Shown: positions 31,058 to 46,886, counted from the stretch's first letter. The stretch is DNA of 64,000 nt from Weeksellaceae bacterium TAE3-ERU29 (GCA_019218445.1 JAHUUM010000007.1:1-64000), one strand, 5' to 3'. Notes: generated by a model from the letters alone, not told the origin. Numbers and translations are program-made.

Positions 31058-31092
31058 CCATTGAAACCAATTTATAAAAATCAATGGCAAAT
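31053..31092 (+). promoter_or_regulatory. perfect 12-bp inverted repeat overlapping promoter and start codon
   Basis: ATTTGCCATTGA (31053-31064) and TCAATGGCAAAT (31081-31092) are exact reverse complements with a 16-nt spacer. The right arm contains the start codon of the SPFH gene (ATG 31084), and the left arm overlaps the candidate -7 box. It could be a two-half-site operator, or an RNA hairpin hiding the start codon if transcription begins further upstream. Confidence 0.6.
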
Positions 31093-32070
31093 CCGGACTC
31101 AAAACTTCCTTTTTTGGAAATCATCGAATGGGTGGAAGAAAACCCTAATTTATTGATGAGAAAAATCTGTGATTCCGATAAGGAAATCAAAAATGGAGCA
31201 AAACTCATCGTGCGAGAAAGTCAAAAAGCAATGTTTCTCAATGAGGGAACAATTGCCGATATTTTTGAGGCGGGAACGCACACACTCAAAACTCAAAATA
31301 TTCCTGTTTTAAGCAAATTAAAAGGCTGGAAATACGGTTTTGAAAGTCCGTTTAAAGCGGATATTTATTATTTTTCGGTTACACAATTCGTTAATTTAAA
31401 ATGGGGAACGCCCGCCCCGATTTTGATGCGAGACAGTCAGTTTGGGCAAGTCCGTATCAAAGCCTTTGGAAGTTACAATGTTCGTATTAAGGATATTGCC
31501 AAATTTTTCAAGGAATATGCGGGTACTTTTCCGATTCTGACCATTTTTGAATTGGAAAATCAGTTACGAGATTTCATTGCCCCCAAATTTGGCGAAGTGA
31601 TTGCCCAGTCGGGAATTTCCGTATTGGATTTGGCGGGAAATATGACAGAATTAAGTGCGAAAATTCGTCCGCTTATCACGCCTTATTTTGAAAATCTGGG
31701 TGTAGAAGTTACGGAGTTTGCCGTGAGTTCCGTAACCCTTCCTACCGAAGTTACCAAGCATTTTGACGATGTTACGAGTATGAATATGGTCGGCGATATG
31801 AATCGATACACGCAATTTCAAACCGCAAAAGCCATTGGAGAAGAGGGAAATCCATTGCAAAACAATGTGCAACAAGGCACAGCTATGGGAATGATGCTCG
31901 GTGCAATGCAACAACAAATGCAAAATTCAAATTCTTCTCAAAATCAGTCTAATGCACCCACCGATGATGTAGCCTCTCGTTTGCAAAAACTCAAAACACT
32001 TTTTGAAAACGGATTAATAGACGAGGAAGAATTTAAGGCAAAAAAAGCAGAGATTATTGCTGAATTGTAA
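31084..32070 (+). CDS. SPFH/Band-7 domain protein with C-terminal SHOCT domain
   Basis: 328 residues. It resembles the Bacillus YdjI/virion-core-protein-like SPFH family: FLEIIEW near the N-terminus, the ESQKAMFLNEG... FEAGTHTL segment, SPFKADIYYF, and KAFGSYNVRIKDIAKFF. A Gln/Asn/Met-rich linker (about 265-300) leads to a SHOCT motif (SRLQKLKTLFENGLIDEEEFKAKKAEIIAEL), a short helical oligomerisation module. There is no membrane helix; such proteins attach to membranes peripherally and oligomerise. It is first of a seven-gene cluster. Local G+C is high for the window (28 and 29 of 60 in 31381-31440 and 31561-31620, against 15 of 60 in 27781-27840). Confidence 0.88.
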   Translation: MANPDSKLPFLEIIEWVEENPNLLMRKICDSDKEIKNGAKLIVRESQKAMFLNEGTIADIFEAGTHTLKTQNIPVLSKLKGWKYGFESPFKADIYYFSVTQFVNLKWGTPAPILMRDSQFGQVRIKAFGSYNVRIKDIAKFFKEYAGTFPILTIFELENQLRDFIAPKFGEVIAQSGISVLDLAGNMTELSAKIRPLITPYFENLGVEVTEFAVSSVTLPTEVTKHFDDVTSMNMVGDMNRYTQFQTAKAIGEEGNPLQNNVQQGTAMGMMLGAMQQQMQNSNSSQNQSNAPTDDVASRLQKLKTLFENGLIDEEEFKAKKAEIIAEL

Positions 32071-32087
32071 TTTTTAATTAGGGAAAA

Positions 32088-32345
32088 ATGCAAGAAGAAA
32101 ACAAAAAACCGCTTTCACTTGTGGAGCGAATGAAACTCAAAGCACAACAAAACTCAAAATACGGTGGACAATTTGTCGAAAAAAAGGCAGAAGTTTCTGC
32201 TCAAGATTGTCCGAATTGCGGTGCGGGACGAGCCAAACACGAGGGCGTAACGCATTGTGCGTATTGTGGTTTTGAATTTATTCATCAAAAAATAGAAGAC
32301 GGAATTCACTTAAAAAAAGACGATAATTCAAAGCGATTTCTATGA
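32088..32345 (+). CDS. small zinc-ribbon protein
   Basis: 85 residues. The N-terminal half is basic and Gln/Lys-rich. The C-terminal half holds one zinc ribbon, CPNCG...CAYCGF (Cys pairs about 20 apart). Zinc ribbons like this commonly accompany SPFH-SHOCT proteins, probably as protein-binding modules. It overlaps the next gene by 4 nt (ATGA), so translation of the two is coupled. Confidence 0.75.
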   Translation: MQEENKKPLSLVERMKLKAQQNSKYGGQFVEKKAEVSAQDCPNCGAGRAKHEGVTHCAYCGFEFIHQKIEDGIHLKKDDNSKRFL

Positions 32346-33364
32346 CAAAATCCTATTTAGAACTGAAAGAATTGCAACAACGTTCCCAAGTGTTTTTACA
32401 AAAATTAAAAGTAAAAGCCAACGAATTGGAGGCAGAAGCACGCAGTATCGCTCAATCGGTTTATGACGAAGATACCGAGCGTTACAAACGTGCGTTCTAT
32501 AATTTTGAATTGGGAATAAAAGGGCAATTCAAGAGCATTCGGGAGAAAGCCAATGAGATTTATAAAAAACAAATTATGCCCCGTCGAGGTGGTTGGGACG
32601 AGCAAGGTGATTATGGTAATTTGTACAACGAAATTGTCCAACTTTTTCAAGATTTTGACAACGAAATACAAAACCAAATGTACTCGATTTTTGATTCGGT
32701 GCAGAAAATCAGTCCCGAAGTGTATTTGAAACAAGCCTTGGACGAATACGAACAAGTGAAAGACGCTTTTTCTTGTTCACAATGCGGTGCACCCATTCAT
32801 ATCGACCAACTTTATTTTGTTTCGACCTATATTCCTTGTCCGTATTGTAAAACGCAAAATACGTTTGTTCCCGGTACACGAATGGGCGAGGTGGAAGGTT
32901 TGACAAGGGAAGTAGGCGAAGAACGACACAAAGATTTGGAGCGAATTTATGATGAATTAAAGTCCGAACAAACCGCCGAATCGCTTTGGGCATATTTCAA
33001 ATATCGAGCGTTTGTATGGTTGGAAAAATCGAAAATTCTGCCTGTTTTTAAAGATGAAAATTTAAAAGTTTTTTATCGAGAAGTTCACGATGAACAAAGG
33101 TATTCTCATAATTATGACTACGAAAAACACCCCGAAATCTATCAAAAAATCGTAGAGAAATTAGGTTTTGAGAAAGATTTTTCAGAAAAAATACAGTATG
33201 CTACCGATGCAGAAAAATCAGCTTTAAAATCCGATTGGGATTTGATGTTGTATTTGTCTTTGGGTTATCTCGAAAAAATTGGTGATTTCGGGAAATATCA
33301 AACCATTTATCAGCAAAATCACGAACGATTAACAAATTTAAAATCGAAACTAAACGAATTATAA
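32342..33364 (+). CDS. coiled-coil protein with a central zinc ribbon (340 residues)
   Basis: Not recognised as a named family. The N-terminal 135 residues are a charged helical or coiled-coil region. A zinc ribbon sits at about 145-175 (CSQCGAPIHID... CPYCKTQNTF). The C-terminal half is helical. It is cytoplasmic, with no membrane helix. It is coupled to the small zinc-ribbon gene upstream and followed 10 nt later by a membrane protein gene. The context suggests a complex with the SPFH protein at the membrane (inference). Confidence 0.75.
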   Translation: MTKSYLELKELQQRSQVFLQKLKVKANELEAEARSIAQSVYDEDTERYKRAFYNFELGIKGQFKSIREKANEIYKKQIMPRRGGWDEQGDYGNLYNEIVQLFQDFDNEIQNQMYSIFDSVQKISPEVYLKQALDEYEQVKDAFSCSQCGAPIHIDQLYFVSTYIPCPYCKTQNTFVPGTRMGEVEGLTREVGEERHKDLERIYDELKSEQTAESLWAYFKYRAFVWLEKSKILPVFKDENLKVFYREVHDEQRYSHNYDYEKHPEIYQKIVEKLGFEKDFSEKIQYATDAEKSALKSDWDLMLYLSLGYLEKIGDFGKYQTIYQQNHERLTNLKSKLNEL

Positions 33365-33374
33365 AATTATAACT

Positions 33375-33830
33375 ATGAAAAATTACAAGTACGTAAAATT
33401 ATCGTCAGGAATGACCTATTTAGCCTTTATCGGATTTCTGTTTGCCATACTCATTATGGCTCTTATTGGTGTGGCTCAATTTGCCTATCAAATTTTTGAG
33501 GTTAACACATGGGTGTTTTTGTTGGTGGTAGCTGTTTTCATTGGATTATTTGCTTTAATGGCGGTATATTTAGCTAAGGCTGAAATCATTGACAATGAAT
33601 TTCATTTAAGAAAATTTTTCGGAAAGAGAGAAATTTTTGACATCAAACAGCTTTCTCATATTTACACAATGGGTGACCACAGAGGGACTTCCGTACTGCT
33701 TACCATTGACAACAACGGAAAGAAAGAACGATATTATATATTCACTTCCAATCTGATTTTTGAAAATACAAAAACCGATAGTGCAACGATTTTACAAGAT
33801 ATTTTGGAAGAAAATAAGAAAAATAAGTAG
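33375..33830 (+). CDS. two-helix membrane protein with a PH-like cytoplasmic part
   Basis: 151 residues. Two adjacent membrane helices (about 15-40 and 46-68), then a soluble domain of short strands (AEIIDNEFHLRKFFGKREIFDIKQLSHIYTM... SVLLTIDNNGKKERYYIF). The layout resembles bacterial PH-domain (YcxB/bPH2-like) membrane proteins, but this is by pattern only. It is fourth gene of the SPFH cluster, closely spaced (10 and 29 nt). Confidence 0.7.
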   Translation: MKNYKYVKLSSGMTYLAFIGFLFAILIMALIGVAQFAYQIFEVNTWVFLLVVAVFIGLFALMAVYLAKAEIIDNEFHLRKFFGKREIFDIKQLSHIYTMGDHRGTSVLLTIDNNGKKERYYIFTSNLIFENTKTDSATILQDILEENKKNK

Positions 33831-33859
33831 CTAAATTTCAATTATTAAAACTTAGATGT

Positions 33860-34360
33860 ATGAGAAAAAATGTAGTATTTGGCTTATGCCTTTTAATTTT
33901 CGGATTGCTTTCAACCGAGGCACACGCACGAAAAAGAATTTCCATAGGAACGAGCGAAAAACTGGAAACGGTGGCTCAATTACCTAACACAGAAGAATAT
34001 TTATTAGACAATGGCGATTATCTGAATTTGGGTGTCCTTTACGAGCGATTTGAAATTGCAGGAATGCCTTTGTGGGTTACGGAAGAACCTAAAATCGTGG
34101 GTGTTAATACTTTTAAAAGAGATATTTATTATGATTTAGACGATGAAACCATTCAAGCAATCATAGAAGAAAATAACTTACCAAGTGTCGATGAATTAAA
34201 ACATATTGGCTTTTTAGACCGTTATTCGGGTGCAATTATTTTATTGGTAGTCATCGGATTATCTACTATTTATGTTCTCTTTTTTAAAAAAAATACACCT
34301 AATGAAATTGAGGAAATAGAAGATACAAAAGAAGAAAATCAAACGAACATAAATCAATAA
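33860..34360 (+). CDS. exported single-pass membrane protein, function unknown
   Basis: 166 residues with a signal peptide ending AHA, a soluble extracytoplasmic part (about 24-120) with a short helical segment (LDDETIQAIIEENNLPSVDEL), then one membrane helix (about 126-143, GAIILLVVIGLSTIYVLFF) and an acidic cytoplasmic tail. I recognise no family. It is in the SPFH operon, 29 nt after the previous gene and 32 nt before the DUF805 gene. Confidence 0.7.
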   Translation: MRKNVVFGLCLLIFGLLSTEAHARKRISIGTSEKLETVAQLPNTEEYLLDNGDYLNLGVLYERFEIAGMPLWVTEEPKIVGVNTFKRDIYYDLDDETIQAIIEENNLPSVDELKHIGFLDRYSGAIILLVVIGLSTIYVLFFKKNTPNEIEEIEDTKEENQTNINQ

Positions 34361-34392
34361 TAATTTTATAAATAACTAAAAAAACAACGACT

Positions 34393-34734
34393 ATGAAAGA
34401 AAAATTCGACATGTATTTCGTAAACATTTTGAAGAACAATTATGCTAACTTCAAAGGCAGAGCAAGAAGAGCCGAATATTGGTATTTTGTGCTGTTTAAT
34501 GTGATTATCGCTTTTGTACTTGGATTTATTTTTGGTCTTCTTGACTTATCATTTGTGGCAAGTCTTTATTGGTTAGCCGTTTTTGTTCCTTCTATTGCTC
34601 TTGGATTTAGAAGAGTGCAAGATGTAGGAAAACCGGGTTGGTTTATTTTTATCCCAATTTATGGTTTTATCCTTACCCTTCAAGAAGGCGAAAAAGGAGC
34701 AAACGAATACGGAGCAGACCCAAAAGGTCTATAA
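34393..34734 (+). CDS. DUF805 family membrane protein
   Basis: 113 residues. Typical DUF805: the FKGRARRAEYWYFVLF start, membrane helices (about 28-50, 54-75 and 84-97), the ALGFRRVQDVGKPGWFIFIPIYG block with conserved R-x-x-D-x-G-x-xGW, and a GANEYGADPKG tail. Length is standard. DUF805 proteins are inner-membrane proteins of unknown function. It is the last gene before a terminator-like hairpin in the cluster. Confidence 0.92.
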   Translation: MKEKFDMYFVNILKNNYANFKGRARRAEYWYFVLFNVIIAFVLGFIFGLLDLSFVASLYWLAVFVPSIALGFRRVQDVGKPGWFIFIPIYGFILTLQEGEKGANEYGADPKGL

Positions 34735-34742
34735 ATCAAATA

Positions 34743-34780
34743 GAAAGTGATAGTAATTTTATTATCACTTTCTTCATTTT
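34743..34780 (+). terminator. terminator or attenuator inside the SPFH cluster
   Basis: Perfect 10-bp stem GAAAGTGATA / TATCACTTTC with a 10-nt loop, followed by TTCATTTTTC. It lies between the DUF805 gene and the 366-residue gene (66-nt gap), so expression of the latter may be lower or separately driven. Confidence 0.7.
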
Positions 34781-34800
34781 TCAATTAAAAAAACAAAATT

Positions 34801-35901
34801 ATGAGTAATTACAACGACGAATTTCAAGGCGGTTGGAACGAAGAAGAAGGCGTATATTATGCCAAAGGTTCGTACGACAACGAGGTGGAATATTATAACG
34901 AAATCATTTGTTATACTAATTTCTTAAACGGCTATTTACCGGCGATTATACAAAGTCCTTCACAAGCGGAAAAAATGGCTCTTATTGACGAGGTAAAAGC
35001 AATGATTGCAGAAAACAAAGAACATATCACCAATTTGGGTGATTATGAGGGCGATGATAACTTGATGAACAAAGCCCAAGAATATTTGAACACGACGCAA
35101 GAAAGAATCGGCGAATGGAAACAACTATTCGAAGATTTGAAATCTAATAAGTTGGACGAAAATTCTGTTACCCCCGTTTTTGAGGATTTAAGACAACGAA
35201 CTGAAAACGATTTGATGCCACTACAAGAGGCACTTAACGAGTTTGAAAATTCGTATTTTGATAATGACGACGATGATGAAGATTTTGATTTCGAAAGTTA
35301 CGGAGAGGTTGATTTTTCCAATCCAACCATGGAACACATCGATTTTGACGAAAACAATCCGCTTTTACAGCCTATTCATGGTATCCGCTTAGAGGATTAT
35401 GCGGCGGCAGCTTCTCGATTGGCAAACGGAATGACAGAGGAGCAAGTAGCTAAAGCCTTAGGCGTAGAACGTCCGCAATGGGACGAGGCTAATCAGCTAT
35501 GGATAAAGCGTATGCAACAAGACACAGATTTTGTAGTTACCGGACTTTACGGACAATATTTCGCTACTGCCGACAGCCACCCGAAATTCCAAGATTTAGA
35601 GGAAGATTCTTCTATGCCGACCAATCAGGAGAATTTACAAAAAATCAATTCTGACCCGTATTTTTATTATGAATTGGCGGGAGCAATACAAGCCGCCTAT
35701 GAATACGGAATGGACGGAGCTCAATGGTTACGAGATAATTACGGACTTTCTATCGGGGAATTTCAAGGAGTTGCCATGAAATGGATGACCACTACCGATA
35801 TGTCTAAAATGCTTGGTTATCAAGAGCAGAAAGCTAAAGAATACGGCGAGAAATTTGCAAAAGAACAAGGCGGAAATATCGCTGATGATGTAGAGTTTTA
35901 G
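34801..35901 (+). CDS. acidic 366-residue protein of the SPFH cluster (possibly DUF6620)
   Basis: Cytoplasmic and strongly acidic, with no signal or membrane helix. The N-terminal 155 residues are helical. A poly-Asp/Glu linker (about 157-170) follows. The C-terminal half contains a conserved-looking helical segment HGIRLEDYAAAASRLANGMTEEQVAKALGVERPQWDEANQLW, then repeated motifs of similar helical type (FYYELAGAIQAAYEYGMDGAQWL). I recall similar Bacteroidota proteins under DUF6620 but cannot verify it. The TEEQVAKALG segment looks helix-turn-helix-like without being clearly DNA-binding. It ends 6 nt before the first copy of the 51-bp repeat. Confidence 0.7.
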   Translation: MSNYNDEFQGGWNEEEGVYYAKGSYDNEVEYYNEIICYTNFLNGYLPAIIQSPSQAEKMALIDEVKAMIAENKEHITNLGDYEGDDNLMNKAQEYLNTTQERIGEWKQLFEDLKSNKLDENSVTPVFEDLRQRTENDLMPLQEALNEFENSYFDNDDDDEDFDFESYGEVDFSNPTMEHIDFDENNPLLQPIHGIRLEDYAAAASRLANGMTEEQVAKALGVERPQWDEANQLWIKRMQQDTDFVVTGLYGQYFATADSHPKFQDLEEDSSMPTNQENLQKINSDPYFYYELAGAIQAAYEYGMDGAQWLRDNYGLSIGEFQGVAMKWMTTTDMSKMLGYQEQKAKEYGEKFAKEQGGNIADDVEF

Positions 35902-35907
35902 TAGGGC

Positions 35908-35958
35908 GTTTCTATATTTTTTAATCTTAAAACTCTCTTTGGAAACAAGGGGAGTTTT
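35908..35958 (+). repeat. 51-bp direct repeat, left copy
   Basis: Matches 41471-41521 at 49 of 51 positions; the first 41 are identical. It starts 6 nt after a stop codon. Its right half can fold (AAAACTCTCT / GGGGAGTTTT with two G-U pairs), so it may act as a terminator. The rest of the 195-nt gap to the Sel1 gene holds only a weak -7-like TTAATTTG at 36074-36081. Confidence 0.92.
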
Positions 35959-36096: not shown

Positions 36097-38601
36097 ATGA
36101 GAAAAGACACCTACCAACCCAAAGAATATACCATTACCGAAATTCAAAATTTACTATCAAAACACGAAAAAAATATTGATACATTTGATACCCAAATCAT
36201 TAATGAACGGCTTACTCTTTTAGTCAATGCCCTAAAAAACGATTATTTTAATGATTCAGTTAAAAACGTATATGATTCATTATATAAAAAAAGACGTTTG
36301 GTTTCCTCCTGTATATGGCTTTCTGAAGAGGAATATCAAAAATGGTTTAAAGATGCGTATCAGCTAAACCTTGATTTTATTGAAAAAGGACATACAATTG
36401 CCTATTCCAATCAATTTGATTTGATAGACATGCGACGTACCACCATTGATAAAACCATGCAAGACGCCCTTGCTTTTATTGAAAAAGGAATAGAGAAAAA
36501 AGACCCTGATTGTCTTTGTTTAATGGCGTACTTTTTAACCTTTGGTTATTTTGACAGACCCATTGATAAAGAAAAGGCACAAGCCTATCTACAAGAAGTC
36601 AAAGACATGGATTTCAAAGACGTAGATTTCTTTGAATTTATTATTCAATTAAGAGGAGAGCAAGACCAAGAAAAAGGCGAAGAACTGATTCAAGAATACC
36701 GAAAACAACCACGAGAGGAGAATCCGGCAAACTTTGTGATTGCTGAATTTTATTTACGTACACAACAACCCGAAAAAGCACTCCCTTATTTAGAGGAAGG
36801 GAAAAAAGAAAATGAATTTTATTGTTATCATATTTGGGGAATCGAGGTAATCAACGGTAATATTCCGGTAGAAAATCCGGAACAAGAAGGTTTAGAAGCC
36901 TTACGTACTGCGTTTGAACATGGCACGATGTATTCCGGGTATTTGTATGGAACTCGTTTGCTTTACGGAGAAAAGCCCGAGAAAAAAGAAGAAGGACTTA
37001 CTTATATAAAACAAGCGGCTTTATTTAATGAGCCGACCGCACAATATGAATTGGGAACTTTCTACCTCTTTAATGAAGATGAAAAAGATGTTGCCCAAGG
37101 TTTACGTTACTTAGAACAAGCTGTTCAAAACGGAAATTCCAGAGCCGAAGTAGAAATGGGGATCCTCCTATTAGACCCTGAAAGTCCTGTGGGAGAAAAC
37201 AGGGAAGAAGCTTTCCGATTATTTCAAAAAGCCTATAAAAGTGGAAATCCACATGCCGCATTTCGTTTGGGATACGGATATCAGAACGGAATTTGGGAAG
37301 AAGACATTAATTTGGATAAAGCATTGGAATACTATGATATTGCTGCTGAAGGAATGGATTTATACGGTTTGGAAAATGCAGGAAAATTCCATTTGTACGG
37401 TTGGACAGGAGAGCCTCAAATCGACAAAGCCATTGACTATTATACCAAAGCGATGGAACACTACAACTCTGCTTTTGCCATGGTAGAATTGGCGATGTGT
37501 CATGAGAATGGAACAGGTGTGGAATGTGATTTACTTCGTGCCGAGGAATTGTATTTAAAAGCCTTGGAACAAGATTATATTTATGCGGCTTTACGTTTGG
37601 GCTACTTATATAGAAATCCTGAATTTGAAAATCATAATGACGAAAAAGCCTTTACTTATATTCAACGTGCTGCCGAACATGAATTTGCCGAAGCATTGAA
37701 TGCCTTAGCACTTTGCTACCACCGAGGAACAGGAACAGAACAAGATTTGGATCAAGCATTTACTTATTATCAAAAGGCAGCTGAAGCGGGTTATGTACCG
37801 GCGTATGTAGATTTAGCCTTTTTCTATGAATCCGGCGAAGGAAGTGTATCCGAAGACGAAAATAAAGCCTTTGAATACATGGAAAAAGCAGCTGATGAGG
37901 GTTATCATTATGCACAATTCTGCTTAGGTGGCTATTATGCCAACGGAATCGGTACAGAACCCGACGAAGAAAAAGCCTTAGCATGTTTTCAACAAGCCTA
38001 TGAAAACGGCTCACCTTGGGGGGCTTATCGATTAGGCGAATATTATTTATATGATTTAGGCGGAGAAAACGAAGAAGAAAAAGCCTTCCCATATTATCTT
38101 TACGCCTATGAAAATGGTCTTACTACCGAAGATTTAGGTATCTGTTATGAGTTCGGTATTGGAACGGAAACCGATGTCAAAAAAGCCTTTGAAATTTACA
38201 AAGAATACGCTGACCAAGGACTTTCTACCTCCATGTACCGAGTGGCATTGTGCTATTATAAGGGCGAAGGAACCACTACCGATAAAGTAGAAGCCTATGA
38301 TTATTTCCAAAAAGCAGCTGACTTAGGCGACGTGATTTCTATGAGTTATGCAGGGAAAATGCTCGTGGACGGCGAAGGAATAGAACAAAATCCAGAACAA
38401 GGTATTGCGTTGCTCAAAAATGCGGCAGAAAACAACGAAAGCATGGCATTATACGAATTAGGAAACTGCTATTTAACAGGTTTGGGTGTGGAAGAAGATT
38501 CCGATACCGCCATGGTATATTACCAAAGAGCTGCAGAACAAGGCCATGAAAAAGCCGGAAAAATCATAGGACGTACCGGAAGTAGAAGAAGAAAATTTTA
38601 A
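36097..38601 (+). CDS. large Sel1-repeat (SEL1-like TPR) protein
   Basis: 834 residues. After an N-terminal helical region (about 1-180) it is almost entirely Sel1-like repeats of about 36 residues from about 185 to 825 (A-x-x-x-LGxxYxxGxGxxxDxxKAxxYYxKAAExG), for example CHENGTGVECDLLRAEELYLKALEQ and LCYYKGEGTTTDKVEAYDYF. There is no signal peptide, so it is probably cytoplasmic, unlike the many secreted Sel1 proteins. Sel1 repeats are protein-interaction scaffolds. The HSP90 gene starts 11 nt after its stop and a second helical-repeat gene follows, so I infer a chaperone with repeat-protein partners. Confidence 0.9.
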   Translation: MRKDTYQPKEYTITEIQNLLSKHEKNIDTFDTQIINERLTLLVNALKNDYFNDSVKNVYDSLYKKRRLVSSCIWLSEEEYQKWFKDAYQLNLDFIEKGHTIAYSNQFDLIDMRRTTIDKTMQDALAFIEKGIEKKDPDCLCLMAYFLTFGYFDRPIDKEKAQAYLQEVKDMDFKDVDFFEFIIQLRGEQDQEKGEELIQEYRKQPREENPANFVIAEFYLRTQQPEKALPYLEEGKKENEFYCYHIWGIEVINGNIPVENPEQEGLEALRTAFEHGTMYSGYLYGTRLLYGEKPEKKEEGLTYIKQAALFNEPTAQYELGTFYLFNEDEKDVAQGLRYLEQAVQNGNSRAEVEMGILLLDPESPVGENREEAFRLFQKAYKSGNPHAAFRLGYGYQNGIWEEDINLDKALEYYDIAAEGMDLYGLENAGKFHLYGWTGEPQIDKAIDYYTKAMEHYNSAFAMVELAMCHENGTGVECDLLRAEELYLKALEQDYIYAALRLGYLYRNPEFENHNDEKAFTYIQRAAEHEFAEALNALALCYHRGTGTEQDLDQAFTYYQKAAEAGYVPAYVDLAFFYESGEGSVSEDENKAFEYMEKAADEGYHYAQFCLGGYYANGIGTEPDEEKALACFQQAYENGSPWGAYRLGEYYLYDLGGENEEEKAFPYYLYAYENGLTTEDLGICYEFGIGTETDVKKAFEIYKEYADQGLSTSMYRVALCYYKGEGTTTDKVEAYDYFQKAADLGDVISMSYAGKMLVDGEGIEQNPEQGIALLKNAAENNESMALYELGNCYLTGLGVEEDSDTAMVYYQRAAEQGHEKAGKIIGRTGSRRRKF

Positions 38602-38612
38602 TAAAAGTTTTG

Positions 38613-40388
38613 ATGAATAAAGAAAACCACCCGTATAAATTTCAAGTCAATATGAAGGGAATGATTTCCCTTTTGTCGGAGCATATTTACAGCTCACCCG
38701 ATGTTTTTATCCGTGAGCTTTTGCAAAATGCTATTGATGCCATTACGGTACGCCGAAGCATTGACCCCGAATTTATACCCGAAATAGAAATCACACTACA
38801 AGAGAACACGCTGAAATTCAAAGACAACGGAATCGGGCTCAGTCCACAAGATGTGCACGAGTTTCTCTCTGTTATTGGGCAAAGTTCCAAAAGCGGAGAA
38901 CTTGCCGACAAAGAATTAATCGGTAAATTTGGGATTGGTTTATTGAGTTGTTTGGTCGTAAGTGAAGACATTCGTGTAGAATCTCGTTCGCTTATCAAAG
39001 ACGAATCTGTGGTGTGGATTGGTTACTCGGATGGTACATACGAAGTACAAATCCCCGAACAACCGTTGGAAGTAGGAACACAAGTGATTTTACATGCCAA
39101 AAAAGAACATACTTCCCTTTTTCAAAAAGAAACTTTAATTGAAAAAATCCGTTATTATGGAGATGCTTTGCCTTTTCAAATTTATTTTAAAGACGGAGAT
39201 AATAAAGAATTAATCATTGACGGAAAACCTATTTGGTTAAACCCCGATGCCTCCAAAGAAGAATTATTGAAATTGGGTAAAGAAGTTTTTAAAACTAAAT
39301 TTTTAGACGTATTTCCCATTTCTTCGGATACAGGAGAAATCCAAGGTGTTGCCTACGTTATTCCGAGAAAAGTTAATACAACGGTACAACCTACACACCG
39401 AATTTACGTCAAACGTATGTTCTTAACCGAGCAAGCAGGACATTTACTTCCTGAATGGTCATCTTTTGTGCGTTGCATTATTAATACCAATGCGCTGCAA
39501 CCTACTGCCTCACGGGAAACTTTAATGAACAATACGCTTTTGCAATCGGCTAAAAACGATTTAAAGTCGTGTTTTAAAGAATATTTAAAACTGCTTTCTG
39601 TGACTAAAACTGACACTTTGCAACGCATCATCGAAGTTCATCATTTACACATCAAGGCGTTAGCGTCTATGGACAAGGAAATTATGGAAACCTTTATTCC
39701 GTATTTACCTTTTGAAACCAACCAAGGACTTATGACGTTAAATGATATGAGAAATATTTATTCTACACTTTATTACACGCCTTCATTAGATGATTTTAGG
39801 CAAATTAGACGAATTGCAGGCTCTAAAAATAAACTCGTTATCAATGCAGCATACAGTTATGAAGCAGACTTAATCGAAAAACTGAAGCAAAATAGTAATG
39901 ATGACATCAAACAGATATATCCTGAGGATTTACTGGGTGGGTTTGAGTCGGAAGTAGAGGAAGACGAGAATATTCGACGTTTTATACAATTGGCTAATCA
40001 ATCTTTAAAAAATCATTTTTGTGAAGCAAAAATTAAACGTTTTGAACCCAAAGATACGCCTGCTCTTTATGTTGCAAATGATAAAATGATTAGCCAAAAA
40101 AATATTCGGCAAATGAGTCCGAAAAATAATCCATTCGCTAAAGCATTGGGAAAAACAGCACCAGAAGAAGAAAAACCTATTCTCTGTTTTAATTATGATA
40201 ATGAGATTATTACGCATTTACTTAAAATAAATGATCCACTTTTGGTGGAAGCATTTATTATGGTTTTTTATGTGCAAGCACTCATGCTGGGCGGATACAG
40301 TATCAATCAAAGAGAAATGAAAACCTTTAATGAAGCGCTTTATCAATTAATGGTATTGGGGATGAGCGATTTTTTACCTAAAATTTAA
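38613..40388 (+). CDS. HSP90-family ATPase (HtpG-like, divergent)
   Basis: About 591 residues. GHKL ATPase N-terminal domain: E-L-L-Q-N-A-I-D-A (Bergerat N-box, about 35-43), KDNGIGLS (about 71-78) and IGKFGIGLLSCLVV (lid glycines, about 104-117). The middle domain keeps the catalytic-loop Arg in QPTASRETLMNN. The C-terminal dimerisation region is short and divergent. This fits the compact bacterial HSP90-family group rather than standard htpG. ATG at 38613 is preferred over the TTG one codon earlier. It lies between the Sel1 gene (11 nt) and a helical-repeat gene (11 nt). Client proteins are unknown; partner repeat proteins are the obvious candidates. Confidence 0.9.
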   Translation: MNKENHPYKFQVNMKGMISLLSEHIYSSPDVFIRELLQNAIDAITVRRSIDPEFIPEIEITLQENTLKFKDNGIGLSPQDVHEFLSVIGQSSKSGELADKELIGKFGIGLLSCLVVSEDIRVESRSLIKDESVVWIGYSDGTYEVQIPEQPLEVGTQVILHAKKEHTSLFQKETLIEKIRYYGDALPFQIYFKDGDNKELIIDGKPIWLNPDASKEELLKLGKEVFKTKFLDVFPISSDTGEIQGVAYVIPRKVNTTVQPTHRIYVKRMFLTEQAGHLLPEWSSFVRCIINTNALQPTASRETLMNNTLLQSAKNDLKSCFKEYLKLLSVTKTDTLQRIIEVHHLHIKALASMDKEIMETFIPYLPFETNQGLMTLNDMRNIYSTLYYTPSLDDFRQIRRIAGSKNKLVINAAYSYEADLIEKLKQNSNDDIKQIYPEDLLGGFESEVEEDENIRRFIQLANQSLKNHFCEAKIKRFEPKDTPALYVANDKMISQKNIRQMSPKNNPFAKALGKTAPEEEKPILCFNYDNEIITHLLKINDPLLVEAFIMVFYVQALMLGGYSINQREMKTFNEALYQLMVLGMSDFLPKI

Positions 40389-40399
40389 ATTTTAACCTC

Positions 40400-41464
40400 A
40401 TGAATCACACGTTAGAAATACAAAAAATATTATTAAAAGTTGAAAAATTACCTCACTATAAAGACAAAGTACAATGGCTAAAAGAAGCCATTGCGATTGC
40501 CGATAAAAACAACGATATAGAATGGGGATTTGATTTACGTGTAGAGCTTATTAATAATGAAATACACACCTCTTCTTCACACGAATCTTTTCAAGCCTTT
40601 GCGTGGCTTTTGGACGTATGCGATACCTATCCCGAAGAATTCAATGATGAAGAAATCCTTTGGGAATATAAATGGATGGTGGGTTCTGCTTACCGAAATA
40701 CGCGTATTTCTTTTGAGCAAATAGAACACATCACAGAGGATTTAAAAAATCGATTAGAAAAAAACGGTTATACGCTGCGTGCTTACTATAATGTGATGAG
40801 TAATTGGCGACGTTTTGCAGGAAAAGAGGAAGAAGCGCAGCAACTTATCCGCTTAGTGGAGCAGGAATCTCGCGACAATATGTCTAACTGTGAGGCATGT
40901 GAAACAGATGCTAAAGTAGGGAATTTACTTAAACTGAATCAAACCGAAAAAGCATTGGAAGAGGCTCGTCCTTTAATAGAAGACCGACTGTCTTGTTATG
41001 CCGTTCCGTTCCGTTCATTTGCCACATTAGCCTATGAATTGTTATTACAAAATCACCCGCAAGCCGAAGAGTTTTATCAAAAAGCACTGGATGCGGACGA
41101 TCCTGAAAAAGACTATCAGCAATCGGAATTGGTAGCTTGGACCAAACTCATGTTTTACCAATGGAAAACAGGTACGGGCGACGCCTGGAAACAGTTTGAG
41201 AACAATACACTTATGGAGTGTGAAGCAGAAGATGATCTGAAATTATATTTTGCACAACATGCACTTGCGATGCTTAAAAACGAAGACTCTTTGGAATTAA
41301 ACATTTCGTCTCGTCAGCCTTATTATCAGCCTAACGGAGTTTATAGTGCACAAGCGTTATACGACTATTATAAAGCACTTGCCGAAACTTTGGCTAAACA
41401 CTTTGACGAACGAGAAAGCACCACGTATTTCAGTGATACGTTACAACAATTTTTAACGTATTAA
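40400..41464 (+). CDS. helical-repeat (TPR-like) protein, putative HSP90 partner
   Basis: 354 residues, cytoplasmic, all-helical. Helix pairs recur at roughly 34-40-residue spacing (KVQWLKEAIAIADKNNDIEWGFDLRVELINNE; EEAQQLIRLVEQESRD; TEKALEEARPLIEDRL; AEEFYQKALDADDPEKDYQQSELVAWTKLMFYQW), which fits TPR-like repeats too diverged for certainty. It follows the HSP90 gene by 11 nt and ends 6 nt before the right copy of the 51-bp repeat. In eukaryotes TPR proteins dock on HSP90 as co-chaperones; applying that here is inference, as no EEVD-type tail is seen on this HSP90. Confidence 0.75.
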   Translation: MNHTLEIQKILLKVEKLPHYKDKVQWLKEAIAIADKNNDIEWGFDLRVELINNEIHTSSSHESFQAFAWLLDVCDTYPEEFNDEEILWEYKWMVGSAYRNTRISFEQIEHITEDLKNRLEKNGYTLRAYYNVMSNWRRFAGKEEEAQQLIRLVEQESRDNMSNCEACETDAKVGNLLKLNQTEKALEEARPLIEDRLSCYAVPFRSFATLAYELLLQNHPQAEEFYQKALDADDPEKDYQQSELVAWTKLMFYQWKTGTGDAWKQFENNTLMECEAEDDLKLYFAQHALAMLKNEDSLELNISSRQPYYQPNGVYSAQALYDYYKALAETLAKHFDERESTTYFSDTLQQFLTY

Positions 41465-41470
41465 CAGAGT

Positions 41471-41521
41471 GTTTCTATATTTTTTAATCTTAAAACTCTC
41501 TTTGGAAACAAAGGAAGTTTT
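41471..41521 (+). repeat. 51-bp direct repeat, right copy
   Basis: Right copy of the element at 35908-35958, starting 6 nt after the stop of the helical-repeat gene. Its fold is weaker than the left copy's (AAAACTCTCT / AGGAAGTTTT) but a T-run follows. It also supplies the -33 TTG of the next gene's promoter. Confidence 0.92.
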
Positions 41522-41534
41522 TTGTGTATATTTG
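41502..41534 (+). promoter_or_regulatory. promoter of the ParB-like/methyltransferase operon
   Basis: TTG at 41502-41504, a 22-nt spacer and TATATTTG at 41527-41534 fit TTG-N17-23-TAnnTTTG. The -33 part lies inside the direct repeat; the left repeat copy has no -7 box at the matching place, so only this copy is a promoter. The translated start at 41570 is 35 nt downstream. Confidence 0.65.
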
Positions 41535-41569
41535 TCATTATTTCTTATATAACCAAGTATTATAATACT

Positions 41570-43096
41570 ATGAATAAGCATACTTTAAAAAATATAAAAT
41601 TAGAAGAACTCGTATTAGATAAAGAAAATCCAAGATTTGCTGAATTATATAGTGGAAGCGATAAGGAACAAGATTTAATAGAATATTTATTATTTACTGA
41701 GTCTGCGGAAGAGGTTGCTAATGCTATATCTGAGGCTAACGAATTTTATCCTGATAGGCCTCTTTGGGTTTTACAAAAAGGAAGTAAATATATAGTTAAA
41801 GATGGGAATAGGCGTTGTGCTTCTGTTAAAGCATTGAAACACCCTAAAAAATATGGGCTTGATTTGCCTAAAATGGAGATAGATGAATTACCAGTTTTAA
41901 TTTATCATAATGAAAGTGATTTAGATATCAGAATTAGACAAGAACACACAGGTAGTCTGTTCAAAAAATGGGGACGAATTGCAAAGGCTTTAGAAATTTA
42001 TAGGTTGCTTACTTCAGGAAATTCTATAGAATCATTATCCAAAATCGATTCTAATCCTAGAGACTTTATAAAAATAGCCTCTTTTTACCATGAAGCTGTA
42101 CAGCAGAAAGGTGAAAATTTCAAAAAGCTTGTTCGAGAAGGAAGAGGGAAAATGGGAGGAAAAACAATTATCTTTGAAAGATTATTTAGAGAAAGAAAAG
42201 AATGTGGATATAACTTTGGAACTAAAGATGGAAGAATTTTAATTAAGGATAAACATTTATTTGAATCTTATATTAATGCTATTGTTGCTTATTTAATAAA
42301 TCATCCTGATACTACTTCTCGTAAAATGGATGAAATATATAGAAAAGGTGAATCATTTTTAGATCTTCTAAAACCTTATGGTTTTCCACCTCAATTAAAT
42401 AACTCTTCTTCTGATAACTCACAAAAGATAAACACGGATATTATTCAGAGTAAAGAATCTCTTGCTAATAATGATTTAGATAATAATTCTCCTTTTGAAA
42501 AGCCATATGCTTCAAATACAAATAATTCCCCTATCCCACAAAATACAAATAATTCTTCAACACCAAATCAGGATAAAGACACTTCATCCGCTTCAAATAA
42601 ACCTAGTAAAAGGCATAGTATAAAAACTAAACCTACATTAAAAAGAAAAGGAATACCTAGAGCACTGACAACTTTAATTAGAGAAACTTATGACTTAAAT
42701 CAAAATGATTTTGCAAATGCAAAAACAGCTCTTACACGTGTAACTTTTGAATGTATTCTAAAATATATCATTGAAAATACTAATAAACCTAATGGAAAAA
42801 AACTTAAAGAGTCAAATCATTTTTCTTTAGCTTATAAAAATAAGAGAGGAGAACCTTTACCTTATACAAACTTTGACACTTTAAAATCTAAATTTACTGA
42901 ATTAATTATTGATACGGGAATAAAAAAGGCTTTTGAAAATTTTGATCTCCAAAACTCTCATCAGATAATACACAATTATAGAGTAGGTGCAATACCTGCA
43001 GATGCAAAAGGACTTTGTGACAATTTAATTGACTTGGTTGAGTTTATGCTACAAGATGAAGCTGATTTATTAAACTCAATAGACCTACCTAACTAA
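41570..43096 (+). CDS. ParB/sulfiredoxin-superfamily protein with a helical C-terminal domain
   Basis: 508 residues from the ATG at 41570. The open frame begins at 41522, but that extension overlaps the promoter, so I trimmed it. The N-terminal ParB-like domain has KLEELVLDKENPRF and the active-site-type loop KDGNRRCASVKAL (D78-G-N-R-R82). A basic helical segment follows, then a low-complexity Asn/Ser/Pro linker (about 280-345) and a distinct C-terminal helical domain (about 365-508) with HQIIHNYRVG, reminiscent of HEPN-like domains but not proven. The methyltransferase gene starts 8 nt later, so they form a pair. It probably acts on DNA; nuclease, NTPase or adaptor function is open. Confidence 0.75.
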   Translation: MNKHTLKNIKLEELVLDKENPRFAELYSGSDKEQDLIEYLLFTESAEEVANAISEANEFYPDRPLWVLQKGSKYIVKDGNRRCASVKALKHPKKYGLDLPKMEIDELPVLIYHNESDLDIRIRQEHTGSLFKKWGRIAKALEIYRLLTSGNSIESLSKIDSNPRDFIKIASFYHEAVQQKGENFKKLVREGRGKMGGKTIIFERLFRERKECGYNFGTKDGRILIKDKHLFESYINAIVAYLINHPDTTSRKMDEIYRKGESFLDLLKPYGFPPQLNNSSSDNSQKINTDIIQSKESLANNDLDNNSPFEKPYASNTNNSPIPQNTNNSSTPNQDKDTSSASNKPSKRHSIKTKPTLKRKGIPRALTTLIRETYDLNQNDFANAKTALTRVTFECILKYIIENTNKPNGKKLKESNHFSLAYKNKRGEPLPYTNFDTLKSKFTELIIDTGIKKAFENFDLQNSHQIIHNYRVGAIPADAKGLCDNLIDLVEFMLQDEADLLNSIDLPN

Positions 43097-43104
43097 AGTA
43101 TAAA

Positions 43105-43998
43105 ATGTTTTATTCTCCACTTAGATATCCGGGCGGGAAAAATAAACTTTCTGCATTTATTGCCAAAATCTGTATTGATAATAATATTAATGGACACTAT
43201 GTCGAACCTTATTCCGGAGGGGCGTCAGTTGCTTTATTTTTATTAATGGAAGGATATGTAAATAAGATTACTATCAATGATAAAGACCGATCTATTTATG
43301 CTTTTTGGTATTCTGTTTTAAATAAAACCAAGCAATTGTGCGAGTTAATCTCTAATGCAGAACTAAATATTGAGGAGTGGAAGAAACAAAAGGATATTCA
43401 AAAAAATAAAAATGATGTAGACTTACTTACTCTAGGGTTTTCTACTTTCTATTTAAATAGAACAAATCGGTCTGGTATAATAAATGCCGGCGTAATTGGA
43501 GGAATGGAGCAAAAAGGTAATTATTTAATGGACTGTAGATTCAATAAAGCTGACTTAATCAATCGTATAAAGATTATTGCAAAGAAGAAGAAATATATTA
43601 GACTTTATAAAAAAGATGCGATTGATTTAATTAACCTGATAGAAGAGGAAGCAAAAAGCGACAATATCATTTTTTATTTTGATCCTCCGTATTTTTGTAA
43701 GGGAAGTACATTATACATGAATCATTATCAAGAAAATAATCATAAAGAAGTAAGCGAAAAAATTAAAGCAATCAGAAATATAAAATGGATTGTTTCTTAT
43801 GATAATGTTCCTGAAATCAAAGATTTATATAGCGACTGTCCTAAAAAAGAATTCTCATTTAAACATACTGTATATGAGAGTAGAATTGGAAAAGAAATAT
43901 TATTTTTTAGTAATAATATAAAAGAACCTGAAATTGAAAATTATGACCCTATAAAATTCAAAAAGGAAAGGGAAACAAACAATATTTTTTATCTATAA
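43105..43998 (+). CDS. D12-class DNA adenine N6-methyltransferase (Dam-like)
   Basis: 297 residues. Class D12 motifs in order: SPLRYPGGKNKL (SAM-binding start, about 4-15), YVEPYSGGASVALFL (about 32-46), and the catalytic DPPY at 193-196 (FYFDPPYFCKG). Length is near standard (about 270-300). It transfers a methyl group from SAM to adenine N6; the target sequence cannot be read from the protein. No restriction endonuclease of known type is adjacent. The ParB-like gene just upstream is the only partner. The pair could be an orphan modification, phage-derived or defence-associated unit. Confidence 0.92.
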   Translation: MFYSPLRYPGGKNKLSAFIAKICIDNNINGHYVEPYSGGASVALFLLMEGYVNKITINDKDRSIYAFWYSVLNKTKQLCELISNAELNIEEWKKQKDIQKNKNDVDLLTLGFSTFYLNRTNRSGIINAGVIGGMEQKGNYLMDCRFNKADLINRIKIIAKKKKYIRLYKKDAIDLINLIEEEAKSDNIIFYFDPPYFCKGSTLYMNHYQENNHKEVSEKIKAIRNIKWIVSYDNVPEIKDLYSDCPKKEFSFKHTVYESRIGKEILFFSNNIKEPEIENYDPIKFKKERETNNIFYL

Positions 43999-45136: not shown

Positions 45137-45778
45137 TTACGGAATCCTTAAAACTTTATGTGTTTGTAAAGAAATTTTCCATTTAGGATTAGCTAAAACA
45201 TAATCAATGATTTTAGGAGTCACAATATCCTTTTTACTCCATTCAGGCTGAAGGTATAACTGACACGAATCACTTACTTTTGCTGCATTTTCTTCGGCAA
45301 ATTTAAAATCATGATTATTGAAGATAATTACTTTTAATTCACTTGCTTTGTCCAGAACTTCTTGTTTAGGCAATTGTCTTTTTTTAGGAGAAAGACAAAT
45401 CCAATCTAACTCTCCACTCAATGAATGAGAGCCAGAAGTTTCAATATGGATTCTACAATTGTGTTCTTTTAGCTTTTTAGTTAAATAATCAAGATTCCAC
45501 ATAAGTGGCTCACCACCTGTAATGATAATTGTTTTACAATATTTTACAGCTCTCTCCACTAACTCATCTACATCGGTAAGCGGATGTTTAGAGGCATCCC
45601 AACTTTCCTTAACATCACACCAATGGCAACCTACATCGCAACCGCCAATTCTTATAAAATAAGAGGCTGTTCCTGTGTATGCTCCTTCTCCCTGAATGGT
45701 ATAAAAATCTTCCATTATAGGAAGTGTTTTACCCTCGTTCATCAATCTTTTTTGTTCTTCTGTTAATGAGTGAACCAT
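45137..45778 (-). CDS. queE: 7-carboxy-7-deazaguanine synthase QueE
   Basis: 213 residues. A radical SAM enzyme that contracts 6-carboxytetrahydropterin to 7-carboxy-7-deazaguanine, an early step of queuosine (and 7-deazaguanine DNA) synthesis. The cluster motif CxxxCxxC is C47-x3-C51-x2-C54 (GGCDVGCHWCDVK). The YTIQGEGAYTGTASYFIRIGG start and the IITGGEPLMW SAM-contact segment are typical. No other queuosine gene is in the window. A hairpin terminator lies 29 nt upstream, so it probably has its own promoter or depends on readthrough from folD. Confidence 0.95.
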   Translation of the reverse strand: MVHSLTEEQKRLMNEGKTLPIMEDFYTIQGEGAYTGTASYFIRIGGCDVGCHWCDVKESWDASKHPLTDVDELVERAVKYCKTIIITGGEPLMWNLDYLTKKLKEHNCRIHIETSGSHSLSGELDWICLSPKKRQLPKQEVLDKASELKVIIFNNHDFKFAEENAAKVSDSCQLYLQPEWSKKDIVTPKIIDYVLANPKWKISLQTHKVLRIP

Positions 45779-45905: not shown

Positions 45906-45980
45906 AACACCCCTAAAGTCCCCTCAAGGGGACAATTAATTGTGAAAAATTCCACCTTGAGGGGGATATAGGGAGTGTTT
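45906..45980. repeat. 75-bp imperfect inverted repeat with CCCCTCAAGG arms
   Basis: Left arm from AACACCCCTAAAGTCCCCTC, right arm CCACCTTGAGGGGG through AGGGAGTGTT; the arms pair over about 28 bp with a few mismatches, around an AT-rich centre. The arm core recurs at 4471-4490 and 49317-49335. No transposase is nearby; it resembles a non-autonomous palindromic repeat. It lies between folD and queE. Confidence 0.65.
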
Positions 45981-46001
45981 TATAATCATTGTGTGAAAAA
46001 A

Positions 46002-46886
46002 TTATTTATTCAAATAAAATCTTTCGTAAGCTAAAAGTGTATTTTCCAATAGCATGGCACGTGTCATCGGTCCTACTCCACCGGGAACCGGCGTAATAAA
46101 AGAAGCTTTCTCTGCAACATTCTCGTAATCCACATCACCTACTAATTTATAGCCTCTCGCCTCTTTTTCATCGTCTACTCTATTGATTCCTACATCAATA
46201 ATTACAGCTCCTTCTTTCACCATTTCAGCTGTTAAAAAACTTGCTCTGCCCAAAGCAGCAATTATAATATCAGCATCTTTTGTGAATTTTTCCAAATCTT
46301 TAGTCCCACTATGGCAAAGCGTAACAGTACTATTTCCCGGATTGTTTTTTTCACTCATTAAAATACTAATCGGTCTACCCACAATATTACTTCTACCAAT
46401 TACTACACAATGTTTTCCTTGTGTTGGCACTTCATATCGCTCTAACAAACGCATGATTCCGTAAGGAGTTGCCGGTAAAAAAGTCTCCATCCCGAGTGTC
46501 ATTCTACCTACATTCTGAGGATGAAATCCATCTGCATCTTTTTTAGGATCTATAGCTAATAATACTTTCTCTTCATCAATATGTTTTGGCAAAGGCAATT
46601 GGATAATAAAACCATCTAAAGTTTTATCATTATTTAAATCATTAATTAAATTTAATAATTCTTCTTCTGTAATATTTTCATCTTTTTTACAAAGAGTAGA
46701 TTTAAAGCCAACTTGTTCACAATCTTTTATCTTCATTCCCACATAGGCTTTACTCGCAGGATTTTCTCCTACCAATACCGCTGCCAAATGGGGCGCACGA
46801 TTTTGTCCTTTGATATAGTCAGAAACTTTTTCTTTTATATTTTTCTTAATTTCTTTGGAAAGTTTTACACCGTCTAAAATTTTCAT
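46002..46886 (-). CDS. folD: FolD, methylenetetrahydrofolate dehydrogenase/cyclohydrolase
   Basis: 294 residues. Bifunctional one-carbon enzyme interconverting 5,10-methylene-, methenyl- and 10-formyl-tetrahydrofolate. Signature segments: VGENPASKAYVGMKIKDCEQVGF with the catalytic Lys in YVGMKIK, GFIIQLPLPKHID, DADGFHPQNVG, VVIGRSNIVGRPISILM (NADP binding) and TPVPGGVGPMTRAMLLENT. Length is typical. It is monocistronic behind a full-consensus promoter. Confidence 0.97.
   Translation of the reverse strand: MKILDGVKLSKEIKKNIKEKVSDYIKGQNRAPHLAAVLVGENPASKAYVGMKIKDCEQVGFKSTLCKKDENITEEELLNLINDLNNDKTLDGFIIQLPLPKHIDEEKVLLAIDPKKDADGFHPQNVGRMTLGMETFLPATPYGIMRLLERYEVPTQGKHCVVIGRSNIVGRPISILMSEKNNPGNSTVTLCHSGTKDLEKFTKDADIIIAALGRASFLTAEMVKEGAVIIDVGINRVDDEKEARGYKLVGDVDYENVAEKASFITPVPGGVGPMTRAMLLENTLLAYERFYLNK

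Follow-up and report, generated by a model that had tools for sequence, protein, structure and literature searches.

A PRK14083-lineage HSP90 and its conserved TPR-like neighbor: a candidate dedicated HSP90 system in bacteria

The three-gene locus and its HSP90

The window analyzed here is a 64,000-nucleotide stretch of DNA from Weeksellaceae bacterium TAE3-ERU29. An earlier note on this DNA had placed a Sel1-repeat gene, an HSP90-family gene, and a TPR-like gene, in that order and with 11-nt gaps, at positions 36097 to 41464, and the open reading frames (ORFs), their sizes, and the gaps were as claimed. The mechanical call put the HSP90 ORF at 38610 to 40388, the likely start is the ATG at 38613, and both intergenic gaps (Sel1 to HSP90 and HSP90 to TPR) came to 11 nt when counted on the DNA with this start. 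A 51-bp direct repeat, present once on either side, encloses exactly these three genes. The features are as follows.

35908-35958, + strand: left copy of the repeat, 7 nt past the stop codon of a DUF6620-like gene; 49/51 identical to 41471-41521
36097-38601, + strand: ORF for a Sel1-repeat protein, 834 aa (PF08238, E = 9.5e-87), with end-to-end orthologues at 12 other Bacteroidota loci (27-37% identity)
38613-40388, + strand: HSP90 of the NF010683/PRK14083 lineage, 591 aa, with N-terminal ATPase, middle, and C-terminal domains
40400-41464, + strand: TPR-like helical solenoid, 354 aa, the conserved HSP90 partner gene, directly 3' of HSP90 at 45/45 loci
41471-41521, + strand: right copy of the repeat, 7 nt past the TPR stop codon, with a weaker hairpin than the left copy

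The window HSP90 scored 616 bits against NF010683 (PRK14083, "HSP90 family protein"; curated cutoff, 455 bits) and 192 bits against the canonical HtpG model NF003555, which is below the curated cutoff of 371 bits. Its identity to canonical HtpGs was 20 to 26%, and the HSP90s of this kind (module HSP90s) formed a clade apart from HtpG in a FastTree analysis of 125 sequences (support, 0.96). The N-box Glu and Asn, the DxGxG motif, the GxxGxG lid, and the catalytic Arg of the middle domain (SRE) were all present. Specifically, residues E35, N39, D71, G73, G75, G104, F106, G107, G109, and S300-R301-E302 were invariant in 28 relatives. Thus, the Bergerat motifs were intact, as first noticed, and the window HSP90 is expected to be an active ATPase because its catalytic residues (Glu, Asn, Asp, and Arg) and lid glycines do not vary among these relatives.

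The earlier note had also called the C-terminus of this protein compact and divergent, which was correct. Because the family profile (residues 5 to 575) aligned to residues 7 to 613 of E. coli HtpG, and because the predicted fold (pLDDT 83) matched full-length HSP90s in Foldseek with E values of about 1e-40, we consider the C-terminal domain to be short but present. The MEEVD motif was not found in the window HSP90, whose tail reads FLPKI, nor was it found in the tails of the 28 relatives.

Excerpts of Chen et al. (2006; PMC1525184) split bacterial HSP90s into Groups A, B, and C, give IGQFGVGFY and PLN as Group A signatures (Table 4), and report that Bacteroides fragilis and Streptomyces coelicolor have a second HSP90, of 588 aa and 615 aa, respectively. 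The names hsp90B and hsp90C come from Press et al. (2013), and excerpts of that paper indicate that both were left out of its coevolution analysis (PMC3708813). The window HSP90 has the HSP90 fold, the Bergerat motifs, and the catalytic middle-domain Arg in common with canonical HtpG. However, canonical HtpG carries IGQFGVGFY and PLN, whereas the window HSP90 reads IGKFGIGLL and LQPTASRE (TASRE without PLN), so that neither Group A signature is found, and it has partner genes. Group C/hsp90C, as the same excerpts portray it, resembles the window HSP90 in having a length of about 590 aa, in forming a clade apart from HtpG, and in often being a second HSP90 alongside HtpG; the HSP90 of the Bacteroides module is 588 aa, the same length as B. 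fragilis HTPG2. The window HSP90 probably belongs to the ancient paralogue HTPG Group C/hsp90C, an assignment made with a tree that had no named Group C reference.

In the case of the window's own genome (99.95% complete), this gene was the only HSP90 gene, and canonical HtpG was not found. The earlier note had allowed that the gene might turn out to be the sole ordinary HtpG of its genome. Sole it was, but ordinary it was not, given the score of 192 bits versus a cutoff of 371. In addition, 24/27 other genomes that carry a module HSP90 also encoded a full canonical HtpG elsewhere in the genome. We therefore ruled out a sole ordinary HtpG; judged by its sequence, the window protein is an HSP90 with an intact ATPase that is not an ordinary HtpG. 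Three congeners had neither kind of HSP90 at an E value of 1e-3, and two of them also had none by the HtpG model, and canonical HtpG was over the cutoff in 38/60 sampled members of the family. Since the congeners have neither protein and these family members have HtpG, the probable history is that the genus lost HtpG and that the species of the window gained the module HSP90.

The TPR-like partner gene and the Sel1-repeat gene

The TPR-like protein of the window had no Pfam match of its own. AlphaFold2, run with a 47-sequence alignment, predicted an all-helical TPR-like solenoid with a mean pLDDT of 96, and a few relatives of the protein matched Pfam TPR models, both of which uphold the initial description of this 354-residue protein. 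The conserved features of the family are WxxKW, DCxACE (a CxxC motif), a third Cys followed by Pro, and a C-terminal FDxRN (DxR). The TPR profile, run against solved structures, matched nothing but designed PPR proteins and generic solenoids of other kinds, so that no close solved relative was found. A fold search with the TPR model returned only generic TPR superhelices, with the quorum sensor NprR among the weak matches.

The Cys triad (C164, C167, and C199) was complete in 42/47 TPR sequences. The remaining five sequences all came from loci with at least two tandem TPR genes, where another copy kept the CxxC motif. Because triad loss was confined to copies at tandem loci, the sequences suggest that one copy may be held by function at such loci while the others are free to change. 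Tandem duplications were present at about a dozen loci. Arrays of two to four TPR paralogues lie 3' of HSP90 at L069 (11791-16230), L075 (11761-15102), and L063 (9815-11783), and some of these copies do not have the Cys triad. In Actinomycetota, the TPR family covers the N-terminal region of a protein that extends beyond it.

The pairing of HSP90 and TPR genes was assessed in unselected samples totaling 795 genomes: 396 Bacteroidota, 148 genomes of an Actinomadura's class (Actinomycetes), and 251 genomes of a Paenibacillus's class (Bacilli). The HSP90 family was over the cutoff in 2/396, 14/148, and 26/251 genomes, respectively. A TPR gene was located directly 3' of HSP90, on the same strand, at all 45 of the HSP90 loci in these 42 genomes. 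The TPR family was matched in every one of the 42 genomes; the Fisher p value of about 1e-60 is optimistic given the relatedness of the genomes. Ten genomes of the unselected samples had TPR matches and no HSP90, and these matches were weaker (E values of 1e-13 to 1e-30); strong TPR matches were confined to genomes with HSP90.

We also assembled a similarity-selected set, which consisted of 80 loci from a scan of 84,980 species, the window, and 4 further loci, and which was ranked by likeness to the window. At the 83 loci where the contig allowed a judgment, the TPR gene was directly 3' of HSP90 in 75 cases and directly 5' in one more (L087). It was not found at the other seven (L074, L093, L103, L105, L109, L121, and L127). 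The pairing in this set spanned Bacteroidota, Bacillota, Planctomycetota, Myxococcota, Acidobacteriota, Actinomycetota, and a proteobacterium. In many of the pairs, the HSP90 and TPR genes share 1 or 4 nt, an overlap suggestive of translational coupling. HSP90-TPR gene fusions, which would have proved interaction directly, were not found at the loci. The long HSP90 ORFs of GC-rich genomes represent upstream extensions. Among the neighbors of the loci, no other gene family was as widely common as the TPR family, and there was no constant third gene.

The protein encoded by the 5' gene matched PF08238 over the cutoff with 282.8 bits and nine repeats. It contains these repeats and an N-terminal helical region, and it appears to be cytoplasmic based on the lack of an evident signal peptide. 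Orthologues of 826 to 857 aa, aligned end to end, were located directly 5' of HSP90 at 13 loci: the window, five Myroides, one Flavobacteriaceae metagenome-assembled genome, two Pedobacter, Olivibacter, two Bacteroides, and Bernardetia. They were not found at other loci of the similarity-selected set. Sel1-like repeats (PF08238) are shared with other proteins, but this orthologue group differs in its length and in being found here solely at the position directly 5' of this HSP90, within a single clade of Bacteroidota. Because the HSP90s of the Sel1 loci form one clade (support, 1.0), which also includes L074, where the contig is cut off upstream, the Sel1 gene was, most simply, added once. Membership of Sel1 in a universal core was ruled out by this confinement. 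Judging from the sequences, the conserved core is the HSP90-TPR pair, and Sel1 is an addition in one clade.

Random variation of the neighbors in relatives was looked for, and the neighbors were not random: TPR lay 3' at 45/45 and 75/83 loci, and Sel1 lay 5' at 13 loci. The idea that this HSP90 belongs to a defined bacterial system with partner genes of its own therefore held at the genomic level for HSP90 and TPR, and it had to be narrowed in two respects, since Sel1 is not part of the core and earlier work had recognized the HSP90 lineage as a paralogue.

Co-chaperone and other readings of the HSP90-TPR pair

The reading that we favor, with a probability of roughly 0.6, is that the pair is a dedicated bacterial HSP90 system with a TPR co-chaperone or adaptor. 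In this model, the PRK14083-lineage HSP90, a paralogue of HtpG, would act as an ATP-driven dimeric chaperone, and the TPR solenoid, produced together with it, would be its obligate co-chaperone or client adaptor. The solenoid would bind a part of HSP90 other than the MEEVD tail, which is missing here, and would deliver or select clients or set the HSP90 cycle. In the one Bacteroidota clade, the large cytoplasmic Sel1 protein would probably serve as a further scaffold or client receptor. The physical complex, the dimer, the direction of control, and the clients are elements that we infer. A broader version, in which a second bacterial HSP90 lineage acquired an obligate TPR co-chaperone in several phyla, independently of the eukaryotic MEEVD-TPR arrangement and with a Sel1 scaffold in Bacteroidota, has in our estimate about an even chance of being right.

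Eukaryotic HSP90 working with Hop, FKBP51/52, CHIP, and PP5 is similar in that an HSP90 is paired with a TPR solenoid. However, co-chaperones of the eukaryotic type bind a C-terminal MEEVD through a carboxylate clamp, and the bacterial HSP90 has no such tail. In addition, the bacterial TPR proteins have only the generic fold in common with the eukaryotic ones, the partner gene is fixed beside the HSP90 gene, and the bacterial pairing probably arose independently of the eukaryotic one. Two observations count against the co-chaperone reading. In the solved-structure and fold searches, the TPR family was unlike any known HSP90 co-chaperone beyond a generic solenoid, and the 7/83 HSP90 loci without a detectable TPR gene count against an obligate co-chaperone.

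To our knowledge, bacterial HSP90s are usually described as having no dedicated co-chaperones, and such partners are usually credited to eukaryotes only. The eukaryotic co-chaperone Hop is reported to have no bacterial orthologue (PMC7688965). In the excerpts noted above, Chen et al. (PMC1525184) and Press et al. (PMC3708813) treat the lineage as a bare paralogue and do not mention TPR and Sel1 partner genes. We found no description of the HSP90-TPR pairing in the open-access library searched. Thus, the HSP90 lineage is already known, and the pairing, for which the genomic case is strong, is new as far as that library goes, where we found no partner reported. The pair at L063 is presumably lmo0942/lmo0941 of Listeria, going by the gene names. 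lmo0941 has been termed a hypothetical protein of unknown function (PMC6901971).

The near-constant adjacency of TPR across several phyla suggests a dedicated partner protein for some bacterial HSP90s. If so, the pair would be a minimal HSP90-TPR machine of two small proteins, in which the question can be tested directly, and it would offer a way to ask whether TPR partners joined HSP90 more than once. It would also provide a handle on the hsp90C paralogue that, according to the excerpts, earlier coevolution work set aside (PMC3708813).

A conserved operon by itself cannot tell a co-chaperone from a client or effector, and the main rival, which we consider unlikely although clearly the strongest, is that HSP90 would fold, hold, or switch TPR (and Sel1) as its dedicated clients or effectors, rather than being acted on by them as co-chaperones. 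A client and its chaperone would be just as likely to show an obligate pairing. The tandem TPR copies, some without the Cys triad while a sister keeps it, are what one would expect of diversifying clients or receptors, and in Actinomycetota the TPR domain is confined to the N-terminal region, with further protein after it. On the other hand, the HSP90 keeps its full ATPase and three-domain layout, with a generic fold, and the TPR protein is more divergent than HSP90 and yet was never strongly detected without it.

We regard it as improbable that the pair is a regulatory switch or signaling sensor rather than a general chaperone. TPR solenoids often sense peptides or partners, the weak fold match to NprR is in line with this, and general chaperone duty is already covered in the 24/27 carriers with canonical HtpG. 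However, the core pair has no DNA-binding or enzymatic output domain, the weak fold matches were mostly to generic solenoids, and no third gene was constant.

Surroundings of the module

Upstream of the module in the window is a seven-gene cluster (31084-35901) that encodes an SPFH/Band_7_1 protein with SHOCT, zinc-ribbon proteins, small membrane proteins, a DUF805 protein, and a DUF6620-like protein. The cluster is kept in the same order in a congener (G003), where it is followed by a type I methyltransferase gene, specificity genes, and an AAA ATPase gene. Because the 51-bp copies bracket the three genes and the congener differs after the seven-gene cluster, the three genes look like one cassette that was added as a unit at a variable site. 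The left 51-bp copy contains a strong terminator-like hairpin (-18.3 kcal/mol; z, -6.2). A dispersed repeat was rejected as the source of the copies because a search of the window and of 685 kb of its genome revealed no further copy.

Downstream, positions 41522 to 43998 encode a ParB-like protein and a Dam-family methyltransferase that resemble PD-Lambda-5 (component A, weak, E = 2e-18; component B, E = 5e-118). The Dam gene of the congener G003 is 79% identical to that of the window, and its partner matches over 85 residues only, which indicates that the ParB-like part varies. A short sequence at 45906-45983, between the genes at 45137-45778 and 46002-46886, has many partial copies elsewhere in the genome.

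These neighbors raise the idea that the module is an antiphage defense system, which we think has a very small chance of being correct. The module of the window precedes the PD-Lambda-5-like pair, the congener carries the type I methyltransferase, specificity, and AAA ATPase genes at the same spot after its DUF6620-like gene, and the module is absent from three congeners. Elsewhere, however, the surroundings are stable and of a housekeeping kind. Specifically, rbfA and a LolC/E-like permease gene precede the module at six related Bacteroidota loci (five of them Myroides), genes for shikimate kinase and arginine decarboxylase flank it in Bacteroides, and ribosomal-protein genes are nearby in Bernardetia. 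The housekeeping surroundings in Myroides and Bacteroides in particular argue against a specialized defense role, and PADLOC gave the HSP90 weak ATPase-domain matches only. That the genes are merely coexpressed stress genes with no functional dependence is hardly credible; the seven loci with no TPR gene fit this idea, but adjacency at 45/45 loci in three phyla, at about 34% (HSP90) and 25% (TPR) identity, goes far beyond unselected gene order.

A phage or plasmid origin of the module was also considered and rejected, since the "phage" matches were small unannotated scaffolds resembling host chromosome and the pair had few plasmid matches. The "phage" matches included a high-GC scaffold with an actinobacterial gene layout and Listeria records. 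The phage-labeled records with an HSP90-TPR pair (L066 [MT837560], H1, H3, and H5) resemble host chromosomal DNA, and records of this kind may be the source of the PHROGs families to which these proteins correspond. On a Pseudanabaena plasmid (L067, 7935-12798), the HSP90 is 877 aa long and has an extra C-terminal domain resembling the product of the next gene. This HSP90 gene is near a TIR-domain gene and is followed by the gene for another TPR protein, and the locus represents an HSP90-TPR neighborhood of a different kind.
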